The position numbers and the translations under genes are program-made. This document shows, piece after piece, positions 6,503 to 30,612 of a stretch of 64,000 bases of DNA. Source of the DNA: Anaerolineales bacterium (GTDB taxonomy: Bacteria; Chloroflexota; Anaerolineae; Anaerolineales; UBA11579); assembly GCA_021463845.1 (NCBI GenBank), contig JAJTXV010000001.1, forward strand, positions 454,174 to 518,173. Reading direction: 5' to 3'. The notes below the pieces were generated by a model. It did no database searches, was not told the DNA's origin, and saw only the letters and a list, made by a program, of their open reading frames with translations. The stretch's first letter is position 1; every line of letters begins with the position of its first letter.

Positions 6503-7504
6503 TTAGCTAGTCCTTGCTGCTATCAAATCTTTTTGTGGCCGCTTGCCGTGGTCACCGTATCTGGATTTGAAGGTTGGCATATTCGGATCCGGACGCCGGC
6601 TTGGGTCAAACAGTAGCTGAGGCTCCGGATCAGATGAACTACGCGGAAGGTGCTTGCGTAGCTGGCTGAGATTACGTCCGGAGGTGTAGCGGGCAACGGT
6701 GGGCCGGTCTTTCAGGCGCAATCCCATTTGAATGAGAAGTTCATTGGCCCCATTCTCCAGTAGCTTGTTTCCGCAGGAGTGTCGGAAGCGATGAGGTGAG
6801 CCTCGCTCAAGGCCAGCATTCTCTGTGATGGTGTAGAAGATCGCCCTGAGGCCGTGCCTTGTAAGTGGACGCCCGCAAACACCGCCCCAGAGAGCGATGA
6901 ATAAATTCTTCACCCGGGCGTCAGTAATGAACTGGTCCCGTAGGGAGAGCCAGTCTAGGAGATATTGAGCGGTTTCGCGTGTGAAGATAGCAGTCTCGTA
7001 GCGTTGGCCCTTGACCAACACAACCAGAGAGAGGTCAGAGAAGTTGATGTCATCAACCTCAAGCCTGCAGAGTTCAGATACCCGTAGACCGGTGGTGTAG
7101 GCGAGAGACACCAGCGCTTTATTGCGGATCTCTGCCGCCGTCTCGCCAAAGCTGGCCAGTAGCCGTTCGATCTCTTCGCCGTTATAAAAGGGGCGAGGTT
7201 TTACGGGCGCCTTGCGAACTTGAATGCGAGTGATCGGGTGGCCGTTGGGGTAAGCCCATTTGTAGAAGGCCTTGAGTGTGCCAGCAAAGTTGTACTTGCT
7301 GGCCTGGGACCAGTAGCCCTTTGGGTGTTCCATGTCGATGAATTCGGCTACGTGATGCTGATCGAGTTCTTCGAGCGTGAAGCCGCGCATCTCAACCCAA
7401 TCAAACCAGTAGCTGAGATTGGTTCTGTAAAGCACCTTGGTGGCATCAGTGTATTTGCGCTCCATCAAGAAGCGGGAGATTGAGCGAGTGTTCTCGGCGT
7501 TCAT
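6503..7504 (-). CDS. int: Tyrosine-family site-specific integrase
   Basis: This 333-aa tyrosine recombinase is expected to insert and excise the prophage at attP/attB. It has an N-terminal SAM-like core-binding domain (residues ~5-90) and a catalytic domain with TTGLRVSEL carrying the first Arg, HRFRHS carrying the His-x-x-Arg, and a Tyr in VARYTSGRN. The start at 7504 is chosen because it has a GGGGGG-rich ribosome site and overlaps the upstream stop (TAATG); the longer ORF adds 33 unlikely residues. The gene lies at least 6.5 kb from the left end and 31 kb from attR, which is unusual for an integrase. Confidence 0.93.
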   Translation of the reverse strand: MNAENTRSISRFLMERKYTDATKVLYRTNLSYWFDWVEMRGFTLEELDQHHVAEFIDMEHPKGYWSQASKYNFAGTLKAFYKWAYPNGHPITRIQVRKAPVKPRPFYNGEEIERLLASFGETAAEIRNKALVSLAYTTGLRVSELCRLEVDDINFSDLSLVVLVKGQRYETAIFTRETAQYLLDWLSLRDQFITDARVKNLFIALWGGVCGRPLTRHGLRAIFYTITENAGLERGSPHRFRHSCGNKLLENGANELLIQMGLRLKDRPTVARYTSGRNLSQLRKHLPRSSSDPEPQLLFDPSRRPDPNMPTFKSRYGDHGKRPQKDLIAARTS

Positions 7505-7734
7505 TACAGCCCCCCTGTCTCGATCAGTGCGCTGGTTGCCTGAGTGATGAAGAGTGGCAAATCTGCGGGGGAGGGGTCCGGGCTCTGGAAGTACGACATG
7601 CAAAGAGCCAGGCTAAGTAGTGGAGCTGGCGCATCGATCTTGACCAGCTGGTCGATGAGGCGTTGCTGCAGCCGCACAGACATCTCAACGATGAACTCAG
7701 CTGGTAGGTGGCCAGCGATGGCGGGGTGTGACAT
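7504..7734 (-). CDS. Small protein coupled to integrase
   Basis: This is a 76-aa protein starting MSHPAIAGHLPAE, with a strong AGGAGG ribosome site. Its stop overlaps the integrase start. I do not recognise the family. Its place directly before int, with translational coupling, fits a small recombination accessory or regulatory protein such as an excisionase, but it has no clear helix-turn-helix, so this is only a guess. Confidence 0.65.
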   Translation of the reverse strand: MSHPAIAGHLPAEFIVEMSVRLQQRLIDQLVKIDAPAPLLSLALCMSYFQSPDPSPADLPLFITQATSALIETGGL

Positions 7735-14886: not shown

Positions 14887-14926
14887 CGTTACCGTGCCGC
14901 TCCCCGAAGGTTGTATACTGTGCGCT

Positions 14927-15406
14927 ATGAAAAAGTGGGTAATTGGTGTCCTTGTTCTGCTTGCGGCGCTATGTGTTTTTGGCGTTTTTCTCAATACCTT
15001 CTTTCCCACTACTGAGCCAACTCCAACAATAGAACCAACTGAAACAGCCAGCCGTGTTGTTCTTGATGTTGGGGCGTTGGTTGGGCTGAACGCTGTTCAG
15101 GTGAGAGAGATTGTTGACGCTCGTTTTGGGGAAAACGAAGAGTATTTCGACGATGACAGGACCTACTCTTGGCAGATTGAGGGCTATAACATCGGCTTTG
15201 ACTTCGATCCCGAAACCAAAGAACTTGTTTCTCCACTCTCAATTGTCGGCTTCTTTGGGCAGGAGCATTCAATCGAAGAAGCAATGATGCTCTTTGGACT
15301 TTCCGAGAACTCTTCAGCTTATGTTATTGAAATTGTTTCTTATACCCCTCCCAGAGAGACGCCAGGGTTGCCTATGTTTTCTATTAGGCTTTCACCTTCT
15401 CCCTAA
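14927..15406 (+). CDS. Membrane-anchored extracytoplasmic protein, moron-like
   Basis: This is a 159-aa protein with an N-terminal signal/anchor (KKWVIGVLVLLAALCVFGVFL) followed by a Thr/Pro/Glu linker and an acidic, probably secreted domain. The Cys in the anchor does not sit in a good lipobox. Base composition is more AT rich than the genes around it, and an extended -10 (TATACT at 14914-14919) ends 7 bases before the ATG, implying a separate, leaderless transcript. These traits fit a moron expressed in the lysogen that alters the host surface. The start at 14927 is chosen because it begins the signal-anchor. Confidence 0.65.
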   Translation: MKKWVIGVLVLLAALCVFGVFLNTFFPTTEPTPTIEPTETASRVVLDVGALVGLNAVQVREIVDARFGENEEYFDDDRTYSWQIEGYNIGFDFDPETKELVSPLSIVGFFGQEHSIEEAMMLFGLSENSSAYVIEIVSYTPPRETPGLPMFSIRLSPSP

Positions 15407-15423: not shown

Positions 15424-15453
15424 TTGACAAATTCTTGATGTAATCCGTATAAT
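15424..15453 (+). promoter_or_regulatory. Near-perfect sigma-70/A promoter
   Basis: Consensus TTGACA and consensus TATAAT with an 18-nt spacer, the best promoter match in the prophage. It faces a non-coding interval that ends in two terminators. Confidence 0.85.
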
Positions 15454-15459
15454 CAGCAC

Positions 15460-15643
15460 AATTGAATAGCCCCTCTGCCTGGCCGCATCCATCTCGTAGG
15501 TGGGATGGCCCCGCCAGGCGGTAAGACAAGCCCCTGCTTGTATTGGAGCCCGCAGTCGCAGTAACCGGCGGCCCCGGCTCTGACGAGGAATCGAAAGCAG
15601 CGCCTTGTATCCCAATTTGGGATGCAAGGCGCTGCTTTTATTT
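15460..15643 (+). ncRNA. Predicted ~180-nt structured phage ncRNA
   Basis: The transcript would run from the consensus promoter to the first terminator. It holds no ORF with start signals but several stems: GCCTGGC/GCCAGGC (15477-15519) around an inner CATCC/GGATG, ACAAGC/GCTTGT with a CCCT loop, a CCGG/CCGG element, and the terminator stem. I do not recognise the motif as any known riboswitch, tRNA or 6S type. It may act as a free small RNA or as an attenuating leader for scaffold and capsid genes. Confidence 0.6.
15594..15643 (+). terminator. Very strong intrinsic terminator 1
   Basis: A stem of about 20 bp, AAAGCAGCGCCTTG... / ...CAAGGCGCTGCTTT with a further ATCCCA/TGGGAT inner stem, is followed by TTTTATTT. 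Confidence 0.9.
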
Positions 15644-15645
15644 GC

Positions 15646-15680
15646 AAAGCCCATCCCGAAAGAGGATGGGCTTTTTTGTT
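15646..15680 (+). terminator. Intrinsic terminator 2
   Basis: An 11-bp perfect stem AAAGCCCATCC / GGATGGGCTTT runs into a T-tract. It lies 3 bases after terminator 1. The pair should block nearly all read-through unless antitermination occurs. Confidence 0.9.
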
Positions 15681-15772
15681 TTCTGCAGCGGGATGCTGCT
15701 GGGAACTCCCAAATGGGCGGGATGCCCGACCGGGCGGGATGCTCGGAATAGCAAACCACAAGGAGCTTGAAC

Positions 15773-16381
15773 ATGTTGAACCGTTTTGGATTGGCTCGCA
15801 TTCTTTGGGAAGGTGAGGGCAGTGGTGGCGCAGTAGGTGCGCCGGCAGCTGGAACCCCCGCTCCGGCGTCTACCCAGACGCCGGAAAACGCCGCGATCGA
15901 TGACTACGAAAAGTGGCTCGATGAGCAGCCGAAGAATGTCAAGGATGCGATCTTGGCCAACGAGGCCAAGCTGCGCGGTGCGCTGAAAGACGAGCGTGAT
16001 GAGCGCCAGAACCTCGAGAAGCAGGTGCGCACGCTCAGCGACAAAGCTGAGAAGGGTAGCGATCTGCAGAAGGAGCTGGATGGCCTGGCGAATAAGATCG
16101 CGGAATCGGATGCGCGGGCTGACTTCTACGAGTTGGCCCATGCTGCAGGCATCACCAACCTCAAGCTGGCGTATCGCGTCGCCACGGATGAGGGCCACAT
16201 CGACAAAAAGGGGCGGGTCAACTTTGACGCTCTGAAAGCTGAATACCCCGAGCTGTTCGCCGGAAAGGTCAAGGCGCCGAAGAACAATGCAGGCGATGGC
16301 AGTCCGGACGGTCAGCCCCCGCGCAGTATGAATGATTGGATCCGTGCGCAGGCCGGGGCTAAAACCAAAACCGCAAACTAG
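15773..16381 (+). CDS. Capsid scaffolding protein
   Basis: This 202-aa protein has an acidic/Pro-Ala N-terminus, a long charged coiled coil (about residues 60-115) and a basic C-terminal tail. This layout and the position immediately before the major capsid gene fit a scaffolding (DUF4355-like) protein that guides procapsid assembly. The ATG at 15773 is chosen over the TTG at 15767 because AGGAG lies 7 nt upstream of it. Confidence 0.82.
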   Translation: MLNRFGLARILWEGEGSGGAVGAPAAGTPAPASTQTPENAAIDDYEKWLDEQPKNVKDAILANEAKLRGALKDERDERQNLEKQVRTLSDKAEKGSDLQKELDGLANKIAESDARADFYELAHAAGITNLKLAYRVATDEGHIDKKGRVNFDALKAEYPELFAGKVKAPKNNAGDGSPDGQPPRSMNDWIRAQAGAKTKTAN

Positions 16382-16389
16382 GAGAAACC

Positions 16390-17382
16390 ATGCCTTACGA
16401 CAGCAATATTAGCCGGAGCGACGCCGATGCCCTGATGCCTGAGGATGCCGTCCGGGAGATTTTTGCCACACCCCCTCAGAGCTCGGTCATCGGCCAGTTG
16501 GCCCGCAAGCTGCGCGACATGCAGCGCGGCGAACTGCGCATGCCGGTAATGAGCGCTTTGCCGCAGGCCTACTTTGTAGGCGAAAAGGGGCGCTCCCCGC
16601 AGACCTTCGGTCCGATCAAGCAGACCAGTGAGGCAGCCTGGGAGAACAAGTACATCCATGCCGAAGAGATTGCCGTGATCCTGCCTGTGCCGGAATCGGT
16701 TGTCGAGGACATGGACTACCCGATTTGGGAGGAAACGCTCCCGTATGTGCGCGAGGCCATCTACGGCAAGCTCGACTACTCGGTGCTCTTCGGCACCCAG
16801 AATGTCGACGTGCCTGCCAATTGGCCCAACGGCATCCTGGTCGCCATGCCGGCTGCGCACCGCGTCCCCGTGGGCTCTGTGGGCGAGGACCTGTACGACG
16901 ACCTGATGGGCGTCGGTGGCGTCCTCAGCCAGGTGGAAGAGGATGGCTACTTCGTCAGTGGCCATGTAGCAGCGCTGGGCATGCGGGCTCGCCTGCGTGG
17001 CCTGCGCACCGAAGACGGCCTGCCGATCTTCGTTCAGGATATGAAGGCGAAGACGCCGTACGCCCTGGACGGATCGCCACTGGTCTTCCCGCGCAACGGT
17101 GGCTTTGACCCCGCCGAGGCGCTGCAGATCTCCGGCGATTTCGAACAGCTCGTCTGGTCCATTCGCCAGGACATCCGCGTGAAGGTGCTGACTGAGGGCG
17201 TGATCACCGACAACAGCACGCCGCGCCAGATCATTCACAACTTGGCCCAGGACGACATGATCGCCTTGCGCGTGACCTTCCGTGCTGGTTGGCAGCTGCC
17301 CAACCCGCCCAACCGCGTGAACCCCGACAACAACACCCGCTATCCCTTCGCCGCCTTGGTGCCTGCGGAAGAGTCTGCCTAA
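16390..17382 (+). CDS. Major capsid protein, HK97 fold
   Basis: This 330-aa protein is the probable main shell subunit. Support: position after the scaffold, good ribosome site (GGAGAAACC), size and family traits such as VGEKGRSPQTFGPIK (E-loop-like) near residue 58, EEIAVILPVPESVVEDM near 93 and a C-terminal IALRVTFRAGWQL strand. There is no N-terminal delta domain, consistent with a separate scaffold gene. It is followed by two perfect RNA hairpins. Confidence 0.92.
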   Translation: MPYDSNISRSDADALMPEDAVREIFATPPQSSVIGQLARKLRDMQRGELRMPVMSALPQAYFVGEKGRSPQTFGPIKQTSEAAWENKYIHAEEIAVILPVPESVVEDMDYPIWEETLPYVREAIYGKLDYSVLFGTQNVDVPANWPNGILVAMPAAHRVPVGSVGEDLYDDLMGVGGVLSQVEEDGYFVSGHVAALGMRARLRGLRTEDGLPIFVQDMKAKTPYALDGSPLVFPRNGGFDPAEALQISGDFEQLVWSIRQDIRVKVLTEGVITDNSTPRQIIHNLAQDDMIALRVTFRAGWQLPNPPNRVNPDNNTRYPFAALVPAEESA

Positions 17383-17383
17383 G

Positions 17384-18403
17384 TTGAACTCTCTAACCTT
17401 GTATGGGGGCGCCGTCAAGCGGCGCCCCCATACAAAAAAGGCGCAACGCCGCGAATACTTCATCCGAAAGCATCAGCACAAGGCTGATGCTTTCGTGCGC
17501 GCCTTGAAAAAGGATGGCCGCTACCGAACGCAATCGGTCGAGCGGGCCGAGTTTGTCCTTCTGGATTTCCTCTACCAGGGTTTGTTCTCAGGGGTGTCGA
17601 GCGACCGCCTGCGGCCGGAGGCAGAAGCCGGCTTCGCCAAAGAGAAGCCTGTATTTCTGTACCCGCATTCGTTCAGCCCTGTGCTGCCCTATGACCTCGA
17701 GAGCGGACGGCCGCCGAGGGATGTTGATGCCTTCTTTGTCCCCTCCGAAGGTTTTGCCGAGGTCCTGCGCCTCATCAACTATCCCACCCAGGCGATTGAA
17801 GTGGTGGGCTGGTCTTATTCGGACATCAAGCCCTTTCGCCCGGCAGGTGAAAAGCCGAACGTGGTATTCGCGCCGCTGCACCCTACAAACCGCTCGCTCC
17901 CTGAATGTGAAGTTGAGATCAATAAGGCGGCGTACAAGCTTCTGCTGCAGATGCTTCAGGCTGGCGAGATCGCTTCGCTAACAGTACGCCACTACAAGAC
18001 GCTGGAAATGAACGGCTTGTGGGAAGCTCCGAATGTGCACTATGTGAACTGCTTGCTCAATGGCTCAATGAGCGACGCCGAGCGCTCGGATGTCGTCGTC
18101 TCGGCCGGCACTTACGCCTATATGGCGGTGGCACTGGGGATACCCACTGTGATGATGGGGCAGGACATTTGCCCTCACAACTCGCCTCAGAGCGACGGTG
18201 AGTTGATCTACGTGCTGAACTGGGAAGCCTATCGCGACTTCCTGAGGTTTCCATGGTCGTTCGAGACATCGACCAGCCTGAATGATGCTGTGAACGTTTT
18301 GCGGCAGGCCTCAGCTGAAGAGCCTGCCAGCTGGAAGCGCACATTCATCGGAACACCTTTTGATTCTCAACTATTCATGGAGCGGCTGGAGGCTCAACTG
18401 TGA
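17384..18403 (+). CDS. GT-B-like glycosyltransferase, start uncertain
   Basis: This protein of up to 339 aa resembles GT-B enzymes (CDP-glycerol transferase / UDP-GlcNAc epimerase type folds): an N-terminal domain with FLYPHSFSPVLPYD and FFVPSEGFAEVL, and a C-terminal nucleotide-sugar part with PNVVFAPLHPTNR, DVVVSAGTYAYMAVALGIPTV and a later GELIYV. The TTG at 17384 has no ribosome site and two hairpins lie in the first 37 codons, so translation may start at GTG 17495 instead. It couples to the next gene by GTGA. A role in decorating the capsid or fibres is inferred from position. Confidence 0.7.
   Translation: MNSLTLYGGAVKRRPHTKKAQRREYFIRKHQHKADAFVRALKKDGRYRTQSVERAEFVLLDFLYQGLFSGVSSDRLRPEAEAGFAKEKPVFLYPHSFSPVLPYDLESGRPPRDVDAFFVPSEGFAEVLRLINYPTQAIEVVGWSYSDIKPFRPAGEKPNVVFAPLHPTNRSLPECEVEINKAAYKLLLQMLQAGEIASLTVRHYKTLEMNGLWEAPNVHYVNCLLNGSMSDAERSDVVVSAGTYAYMAVALGIPTVMMGQDICPHNSPQSDGELIYVLNWEAYRDFLRFPWSFETSTSLNDAVNVLRQASAEEPASWKRTFIGTPFDSQLFMERLEAQL
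17399..17435 (+). other. 16-bp perfect hairpin after capsid gene
   Basis: TTGTATGGGGGCGCCG / CGGCGCCCCCATACAA with a 5-nt loop starts 17 bases after the capsid stop. The downstream side is A-rich, not T-rich, so it is not a normal + terminator. It may protect the abundant capsid message from 3' decay or limit read-through into the glycosyltransferase. Confidence 0.7.
17465..17495 (+). other. 13-bp perfect hairpin before glycosyltransferase
   Basis: CGAAAGCATCAGC / GCTGATGCTTTCG with an ACAAG loop. It lies just upstream of a possible GTG start (17495) for the glycosyltransferase and could control its translation. Confidence 0.65.
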
Positions 18404-18966
18404 GCAAAGAAGGACTACTCAGACTGCCGGCACACGACCTCATCGACCAGTCATTTGGGCGCCACATTGGCGTCAAAGATGTGGATGCTCAGCGCTTGGC
18501 TTGGCTGGCAGCCCAGGTTCCTGAAGACGGTGTGGTCGTCGAAGTGGGATCTTTTTGGGGACGGTCTGCCGGTTTCATGGCCGCGGCAATGCGACCCGGG
18601 GTCCGGATGTACTGCGTTGACAAGTGGACCAATCCAGTGGACCTGGATCGGTTCCAGCGCAACATGGCCAAGCTGGGTCTTGAGCAGTCGGTTAGTCCCC
18701 TGCAGGGCGACAGTGTCGAAGTGGCTCGCGGATGGGAAATGGACATTGACCTGCTGCACATAGACGCTACCCACACCTATGCAATGGTGCAGGCTGATTT
18801 CCAGGCCTGGGCGCACTTCGTGAGACCTGGCGGCCTGATCGCGTTCCATGACTACGGCGCCCACACCTGGCCGGCCGTGAAACGCTTTGTGGATGAGGTG
18901 GCTGCCCTGGAATTTGAAAAACTTGGTGTGCACCAGCTCATCTGGAGCGGAAGGAAGATCCTGTGA
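18400..18966 (+). CDS. SAM-dependent methyltransferase, Methyltransf_24 type
   Basis: This 188-aa class I methyltransferase has motif I VVEVGSFWGRSA near residue 45, an acidic post-I strand MYCVDKW near 70 and DLLHIDATHTYAMVQAD near 118 with a downstream GGLIAFHDYG. This subfamily usually modifies sugars or small molecules in polysaccharide clusters rather than DNA. It lies between two glycosyltransferases with 4-base overlaps on both sides, so it probably methylates the glycan they build. Confidence 0.82.
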   Translation: MSKEGLLRLPAHDLIDQSFGRHIGVKDVDAQRLAWLAAQVPEDGVVVEVGSFWGRSAGFMAAAMRPGVRMYCVDKWTNPVDLDRFQRNMAKLGLEQSVSPLQGDSVEVARGWEMDIDLLHIDATHTYAMVQADFQAWAHFVRPGGLIAFHDYGAHTWPAVKRFVDEVAALEFEKLGVHQLIWSGRKIL

Positions 18967-19553
18967 AAGTATCAGTGATTTTCCCTTACACCAAGGCCTT
19001 CGGCGACTTCGCTACTCCGTACACCGAAAGCATTCACAAGTATGAGCCCGATGTGGAGGTCATTGCCGTCAACACCGAAGCTGAGGCCGATTATCAGTAC
19101 ACCAAAGCACTCAACCAGGGTGCTCAGCGGGCGACCGGCGACTGGTTGCTGTTCTCCAATGACGACATCCTCTGCCAAGGGCCGTTTGTCAAGCAGGTGA
19201 TGGCCTTGAGCGAGCGGCGCATCTATGGCATGGAACTGCGCCGCAAGACGAAGCAAGGCTGGGGCGCAAATGTCGAATACCTCTATGGCTGGATCCTGCT
19301 GATGCACCGTTCGCTGCATCGTGAGGTCGGCCCGTTCGAAGAGTACTACCTGCACGCAGGGTTTGACGACATCGACTATTGCTGGCGGGCCAAACAAGCA
19401 GGCTTTGGCCTGGCGGTTGCGAACCTGCCATTCATCCACCTGGCCGACCAGGTCGGTGGCCAGCACCGGCGCTACACGGTGCCTGGCTATAAGGATCAAA
19501 TGGCGCGCAGCAAAGAATTCTTCCTCTCCAAGGTTGCGGGGGTGCCGGCGTGA
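18963..19553 (+). CDS. Family 2-like (GT-A) glycosyltransferase
   Basis: This 196-aa protein is a compact GT-A transferase: MKVSVIFPYT at the N-terminus, an acceptor/donor segment ending GDWLLFSNDD (the DxD-like metal site) near residue 65 and a C-terminal YYLHAGFDDIDYCWRAKQAG, matching the ED-x-D-x-x-R region of GT2 enzymes. It overlaps both neighbours (ATGA-type and GTGA). It lacks membrane segments, so it likely acts on a soluble protein or nucleotide-bound acceptor. Confidence 0.83.
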   Translation: MKVSVIFPYTKAFGDFATPYTESIHKYEPDVEVIAVNTEAEADYQYTKALNQGAQRATGDWLLFSNDDILCQGPFVKQVMALSERRIYGMELRRKTKQGWGANVEYLYGWILLMHRSLHREVGPFEEYYLHAGFDDIDYCWRAKQAGFGLAVANLPFIHLADQVGGQHRRYTVPGYKDQMARSKEFFLSKVAGVPA

Positions 19554-30177: not shown

Positions 30178-30612
30178 CTACAGTGGCTTTGATGAGGTGG
30201 TGGAGTTGCGTTTGGATCGGCGACCTCTTCTTTTGACCGACTGTTCCAGGAGCTCATCATCCCATATGAGTTCGGTCACATACTCGATCGCTTTGGCCTG
30301 CCAGCGGTTGCCTGTCTCTTGGCTGACTTTCAACTGATAGCAGATCTCGCCCATCGTCTCCTGGTTGATGTAGCGCCGGATCAAAATTCGGCTGAGCTGC
30401 GGCTGCAGGCGGGCCAGCTGGTCTAGGTATGCGTTCAGCATTTGATTGAGTGCCATACGAGTATCTACCAGGCGCATCCTGCGCTTTAGCCCGTAGTGCT
30501 GGGCAATTTCCAGTTCCAGGAATGGTTCTGTGCCTGCTCGTGAGGGCAAATACCAGTTGCGAAATGCGTTAAACACGTGTTTACGAAGCTGGCTTTTACT
30601 TTTAGCCCCCAT
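30178..30612 (-). CDS. Sigma-70 region-4-like phage regulator
   Basis: This 144-aa basic protein has a C-terminal helix-turn-helix (QETMGEICYQLKVSQETGNRWQ, shown here in pattern) preceded by a helical domain, as in ArpU/RinA-type late regulators that resemble sigma region 4. It is convergent with the late operon and divergent from 30708. A role in switching on late transcription is a fair guess. Confidence 0.65.
   Translation of the reverse strand: MGAKSKSQLRKHVFNAFRNWYLPSRAGTEPFLELEIAQHYGLKRRMRLVDTRMALNQMLNAYLDQLARLQPQLSRILIRRYINQETMGEICYQLKVSQETGNRWQAKAIEYVTELIWDDELLEQSVKRRGRRSKRNSTTSSKPL

Follow-up and report, generated by a model that had tools for sequence, protein, structure and literature searches.

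Introduction

The closest described counterpart of the locus treated here is the late leader of phage lambda, where the strong constitutive promoter PR' is followed by a leader of ~200 nt (the '6S' late leader RNA), the intrinsic terminator tR' and, behind it, the late structural genes. In Stx phage, the small RNA StxS stems from a terminated late leader of this kind (PMC7873438). Phage morons, which are promoter-gene-terminator inserts, also bring their own promoter and terminators into a structural gene cluster. Two Rfam families are relevant to the scaffold genes themselves, namely GP20-b (RF03003), a cis-regulatory RNA whose name we read as referring to the GP20 scaffold-type gene, and skipping-rope (RF02924), a small RNA with conserved sequence. 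Phage P22 is known to control its scaffold synthesis autogenously; to our knowledge, no recognisable RNA operator for scaffold synthesis has been described. Here, we compare with these systems a unit of promoter, leader and two terminators located before the scaffold and capsid genes of a prophage.

Results and Discussion

The window, by which we mean the whole 64-kb stretch of DNA analysed, is part of a 2.33-Mb draft genome, whose bearer most probably belongs to the Chloroflexota. It carries a prophage with the gene order integrase, small and large terminase, portal, MuF-like, scaffold-type, capsid and tail genes, reaching to ~30 kb, after which the early genes follow on the minus strand; a tRNA-Met gene repeat, sought as attachment site, is absent from the window. 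The features at and around the unit are the following.

6506-7603, minus strand: integrase
14924..15406, plus strand: orphan secreted-type ORF of 160 aa with an N-terminal hydrophobic segment, directly upstream of the promoter
15424..15453, plus strand: predicted sigma-70 promoter TTGACA-18-TATAAT, consensus score 12/12
15460..15594, plus strand: leader RNA region of 135 nt, start inferred from the -10 box; non-coding, GC 63%, without relatives
15595..15644, plus strand: intrinsic terminator 1 with T-rich tail, -37.5 kcal/mol
15646..15682, plus strand: intrinsic terminator 2 with T-rich tail, -18.5 kcal/mol
15685..15699, plus strand: GNGA hairpin copy 1, GCAGC-GGGAT-GCTGC
15714..15728, plus strand: GNGA hairpin copy 2, TGGGC-GGGAT-GCCCG
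15730..15746, plus strand: GNGA hairpin copy 3, CCGGGC-GGGAT-GCTCGG
15759..15772, plus strand: ribosome-binding site region AAGGAG of the scaffold gene, read from the sequence
15773..16381, plus strand: scaffold-type gene with ATG start, directly before the capsid gene; its positional counterparts in relatives carry the annotation 'head scaffolding protein'
16390..17382, plus strand: major capsid gene (PF05065, E = 1.3e-18)

The gene context given by the first-pass annotation, with scaffold and capsid genes directly downstream, agrees with these assignments. In this first scaffold family, the name denotes the gene directly before the capsid gene, which is so annotated in relatives; the window protein gives no significant PHROG match of its own. 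The stretch from the capsid gene to the tail-connector genes (17384-19553) encodes a 339-aa unknown protein, a methyltransferase (PF13578) and a glycosyltransferase-like protein (phrog_22332), which is an unusual place for sugar-modification genes.

The promoter-terminator unit

The -35 box TTGACA starts at 15424 and is separated by an 18-nt spacer from TATAAT, which ends at 15453. This is the only 12/12 promoter on both strands of the window, where dinucleotide statistics lead one to expect 0.0024, and its earlier description as the best promoter of the prophage is borne out. Scoring by folding and T tail places two intrinsic terminators behind it, both in plus orientation and with a T tail: a hairpin of 20+ pairs at 15595-15637 and one of 11 pairs at 15646-15674. 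These are the two strongest terminators within the 20-kb late region, lie within about 200 nt of the promoter and ahead of late genes, and leave 100 nt to the scaffold gene; the first-pass annotation, too, had called them strong and tandem. As sequence features, the promoter and the terminators are solid. The interval between them was said to hold no supported ORF, and we find no convincing one either, the best ATG-started candidate being 19 aa long; as a leader peptide, this ORF at 15505 was rejected for its poor SD spacing.

The unit thus shares with lambda PR'-tR' and StxS the strong promoter, a leader of comparable length, intrinsic termination and late structural genes behind, and a short RNA would be expected in the lysogen, as there. 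Unlike the lambda unit, which opens the late operon, it lies inside the head cluster, behind the terminase, portal and MuF genes on the same strand; it has two terminators followed by a hairpin array, and the window is without a recognised Q gene or Q-binding site. A Q-like antiterminator was not recognised among the prophage proteins tested, and the adjoining ORF 14924-15406 is a secreted-type orphan. The only candidate for a late-gene regulator that we recognise would be the protein encoded at 30181-30612 on the minus strand, which has weak similarity to sigma-70 region 4 and HTH domains (PF04545, PF13022; phrog_36, phrog_248) and no tie to the promoter-terminator site. We do not assign the unit to the lambda class; that it works in the manner of PR'-tR' has, by analogy, about even chances.

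The leader RNA

The first-pass annotation had described the region as folding into several stems. This holds for the terminators and not for the RNA body: the fold of 15459-15680 reaches z = -7.6, nearly all of it contributed by the terminators, and the terminator-free part (15459-15590) reaches z = -1.64, with 13 out of 200 shuffles equally good, so that the stems are weak evidence for a structured RNA. Comparison of the unit with 4227 Rfam families gave nothing at gathering score and nothing convincing to E = 10, the sub-threshold matches (E <= 10) being no more than terminator look-alikes. Relatives of the leader RNA were found neither in its own genome nor in 24 family genomes, 400 phylum genomes and 50,697 phage records, where matches were short and scattered. 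The exact pattern TCGCAGTAACCGGCGGCC has 3 matches in viral contigs. Weak matches at two loci (L025, L026) were rejected, the inspected sites reading as coding sequence. A hammerhead-like core (CTGACGA...GAAA) at the RNA end was likewise discarded, its stems I and III being unable to form by inspection and Rfam giving no hammerhead match, and so was an IS605/omega RNA (16.8 bits, with 88 needed).

These results bear on the earlier suggestion of a conserved class such as a packaging RNA or a 6S-type polymerase-binding RNA. The length is about right for 6S and the RNA is located among head genes, yet the Rfam search and the lack of relatives make membership in these or any other known RNA class highly improbable, and a conserved family or distinct class is not supported. 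The 6S covariance model (RF00013) matches neither the region nor the host genome, which makes the lack of 6S similarity weak evidence where this one class is concerned.

The unit could also be a non-coding moron, that is, a stand-alone small RNA that has its own promoter and terminators and would regulate mRNAs of the host or the phage in trans in the lysogen. Promoter and double terminator form the classic moron layout, StxS provides a precedent of exactly such an RNA (PMC7873438), and two relatives have a small RNA, skipping-rope, ahead of their scaffold gene (L294, 1074-1172; L324, 2076-2173). The adjoining ORF 14924-15406 has moron-like composition as well, with 45.8% GC and a GC3 of 0.42, compared with ~59% GC for late genes and a GC3 of 0.82 for the capsid gene. 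It has no Pfam or PHROG match and no relative in viral contigs, its best relative among 400 genomes being a partial match of 29% identity (residues 3-64), and it is probably an inserted moron gene. The deviation in base composition is, however, confined to this ORF and does not extend to the RNA stretch, which is near the phage GC. The absence of sequence relatives in own, family and phylum genomes and in phage records, the modest fold upstream of the terminators and the lack of convincing antisense pairing between the RNA and the starts of prophage genes (36 tests, none beyond z = -2.1) also speak against a small RNA of this kind. Skipping-rope itself differs from the window RNA in being a family with conserved sequence, and it has no window match at E <= 10. 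At the same site in relatives, no sequence counterpart of the RNA or the ORF was found, yet the promoter-terminator layout recurs, which suggests more than a random insert. We therefore regard a stand-alone small RNA as doubtful.

Recurrence of the layout in relatives

Capsid relatives were gathered from viral contigs, genomes and annotated phages. In the annotated relatives, the scaffold gene is preceded by a non-coding gap of about 60 to 290 nt. A terminator is present in 16 of 31 scaffold gaps compared with 21 of 98 other same-strand gaps measuring 40 nt or more on the same contigs (p = 0.0025), and the order promoter-then-terminator in 6 of 31 compared with 1 of 98 (p = 7e-4); the listed cases do not include the window, and both p-values are descriptive, the statistics having been made after inspection of the same collection. 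In a set of 117 deduplicated loci with a profile-defined scaffold start, into which a later genome-contig sample was pooled, 70 have a terminator within 380 nt of that start, 18 have a promoter before the scaffold gene and 12, the window included, display the full promoter-then-terminator order. The premise of the first-pass annotation that a phage would not normally put terminators before its capsid gene is thus wrong for this phage group.

The clearest parallel is found in a locus from the host's class with a capsid 50% identical (L016). It has a 12/12 TTGACA-18-TATAAT promoter followed by a leader of ~87 nt (inferred start), a terminator of -34 kcal/mol, a GNGA core and then the scaffold gene. 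The same order is seen in L058, L060, L076, L077, L085, L087, L098, L282 and Mycobacterium phage JacoRen57 (L123). The leaders with this layout, ~60 to ~220 nt long, have no obvious sequence in common with that of the window. What recurs is therefore the promoter-terminator order and not the RNA, pointing to a conserved regulatory architecture defined by place and order, a conclusion which the sequence comparison supports. The option of a terminated short transcript or of read-through controlled by antitermination, already raised from the window, fits this picture.

Since a terminator with no strong promoter ahead of it is the usual state among relatives (a terminator in 70, promoter-then-terminator in 12 of 117), the promoter may be an addition to a terminator-only arrangement. 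The same imbalance could be explained by plain insulation, in which the terminators just end the upstream operon and separate the doses of portal and capsid, the promoter being incidental or serving the short RNA only, and capsid being transcribed from another promoter or by read-through. Terminators before the scaffold gene are far commoner than promoters (70 compared with 18 of 117), and two annotated phages (L118, L120) have one without a strong promoter. Insulation does not account for the enrichment of the promoter-then-terminator order at this place, chance placement of a perfect promoter upstream of the terminators rather than behind them is unlikely, and the window holds no promoter of at least 9/12 between terminators and scaffold gene from which capsid could be transcribed. 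We consider insulation as the whole explanation unlikely.

Several leaders carry further elements. In three of the loci (L037, L038, L040), a TCGTACGA palindrome is conserved together with its flanks, about 60-150 nt ahead of the scaffold gene; it is present in leaders of the closest viral relatives and absent from the window leader. A different conserved stretch, approximately GYCCAAAACGUGAUGACGUAAAAAGCUCGGGAGCCUGUCGAGGCGAAACGGAGG, lies behind the terminator and before the scaffold gene in Firmicutes relatives (L273, 3200-3348, and the other Lachnospiraceae loci L270, L278, L286, L297 and L301), the L273 leader having no Rfam match at E <= 1; other Firmicutes relatives have a GACG-loop hairpin followed by UAAA. 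In Faecalibacterium phage FP_Lugh (L120, 1726-1798), a tRNA gene whose anticodon reads Trp (CCA) is located in the scaffold leader directly behind the terminator, and a Lachnospiraceae locus (L284) has by eye an apparent tRNA at the same place.

GNGA hairpins before scaffold genes

Between the terminators and the scaffold ribosome site, the window holds an array of three hairpins (15685-15746) that was absent from the first-pass annotation. Comparison of leaders yields the consensus GC-GNGA(N)-GC with an outer stem, located between terminator and ribosome site. Folded in its entirety, the window array shows no unusual stability (z = -0.35), so that the case for the hairpin rests on comparison. 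So that the pairing test would not be circular, the search used the core GCGNGANGC and set no condition on pairing of the outer bases. Ahead of the scaffold start, there are 38 copies of this core at 27 of 117 loci, corresponding to 2.75 per kb compared with 0.108 per kb elsewhere on the plus strand and 0.054 on the minus strand; on the minus strand of the scaffold leaders, there is none. Of 114 possible outer pairs, three per copy, 82 form, compared with 47.9±4.0 after shuffling (0 of 5000 as high), and leaving out the window copies gives 73 of 105 compared with 42.5±3.9. In the pair-count test, 91.4% of cells are paired (shuffled 73.0±2.2), and the covariation score is 0.378 compared with 0.083±0.025, slid partners reaching at most 0.110. 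A host REP element was rejected as the source, GGCGNGAYGCC occurring 40 times in the host genome and its reversed control 34 times.

At ten loci (L080, L082, L083, L089 and L252 among them), the scaffold start codon lies inside a GCGAGATGC core, as in GGAGGCGAGATGCC. This region looks like one more hairpin copy, its pairing being only slightly above that of shuffles.

The association with scaffold genes was followed through 2.9 million viral contigs using a pattern of hairpin plus GGAGG, all counts referring to the matches listed. With G[AGT]GAY loops, 20 of the 24 listed ORFs of at least 120 aa encode scaffold proteins, and among the listed ORFs of this length that start with ATG behind hairpin and ribosome site, all 17 do. 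Control scans gave, again among the matches listed, no scaffold protein in 1 case with reversed loop and none in 21 with swapped inner stem pairs (together 0/22); GCGAY loops gave 1 of 9. There are at least 15 distinct scaffold proteins behind the hairpin in all. Some of the loci overlap with the earlier ones, L184 being the L088 contig and L238, judging from the leader sequence, apparently L109. The scaffold proteins belong to two families, the window's and phrog_206 'head scaffolding protein', the latter matched at E = 7e-28 to 6e-34 by three proteins tested independently, although the profile of this second family was built from the hairpin-scan matches themselves.

The GNGA hairpin thus appears at the sequence level to be tied to scaffold genes, covarying and apparently undescribed. 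An RNA control element before scaffold genes is already known in GP20-b, which occupies the same niche and has matches in or beside the scaffold leader of three relatives (L289, L320, L321). The GNGA hairpin is a different RNA, with other sequence and structure, and GP20-b has no window match at E <= 10. The GNGA array is a candidate translational operator.

Proposed mechanism

We propose that the unit is a regulatory leader of the scaffold-capsid operon, terminated by default, opened when capsid is needed and followed by translational control through the hairpins; we see this reading as evenly poised between right and wrong. The strong host sigma-70 promoter would fire constitutively, in the lysogen too. 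By default, its transcripts and read-through from the terminase-portal-MuF genes would end at the two terminators, so that a discrete RNA of ~183 nt (and one of ~221 nt) is made while scaffold and capsid stay off. During lytic growth, a phage antitermination event or simple flooding from the promoter would allow passage of the terminators and production of capsid mRNA at a high rate. On this mRNA, the GC-GNGA(N)-GC array beside the scaffold ribosome site would set translation of scaffold and hence of capsid, most plausibly as an operator to which a phage protein, for example free scaffold, binds.

The sequences compared establish which parts are present, in what order, and that they recur at this place, as well as the covariation and gene specificity of the hairpin. 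Scaffold autoregulation as the purpose of the hairpin is what we infer from the P22 precedent. More tentatively still, the GC-GNGA(N)-GC hairpin could be a widespread undescribed translational operator across scaffold families, combining with the promoter-terminator gate into a two-step control of capsid production, first of transcription and then of translation, with free scaffold as the likely ligand; we regard this broader picture as possible.

Conclusions

Capsid assembly depends on a correct ratio of scaffold to coat protein and on correct timing. That relatives repeat the promoter-terminator layout at this site suggests that the spot before the scaffold gene is one of the main points at which these phages control capsid production, and the lysogen may constantly make a short leader RNA. 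The hairpin, with its covarying stem and fixed loop before two scaffold families, offers a target for direct testing.
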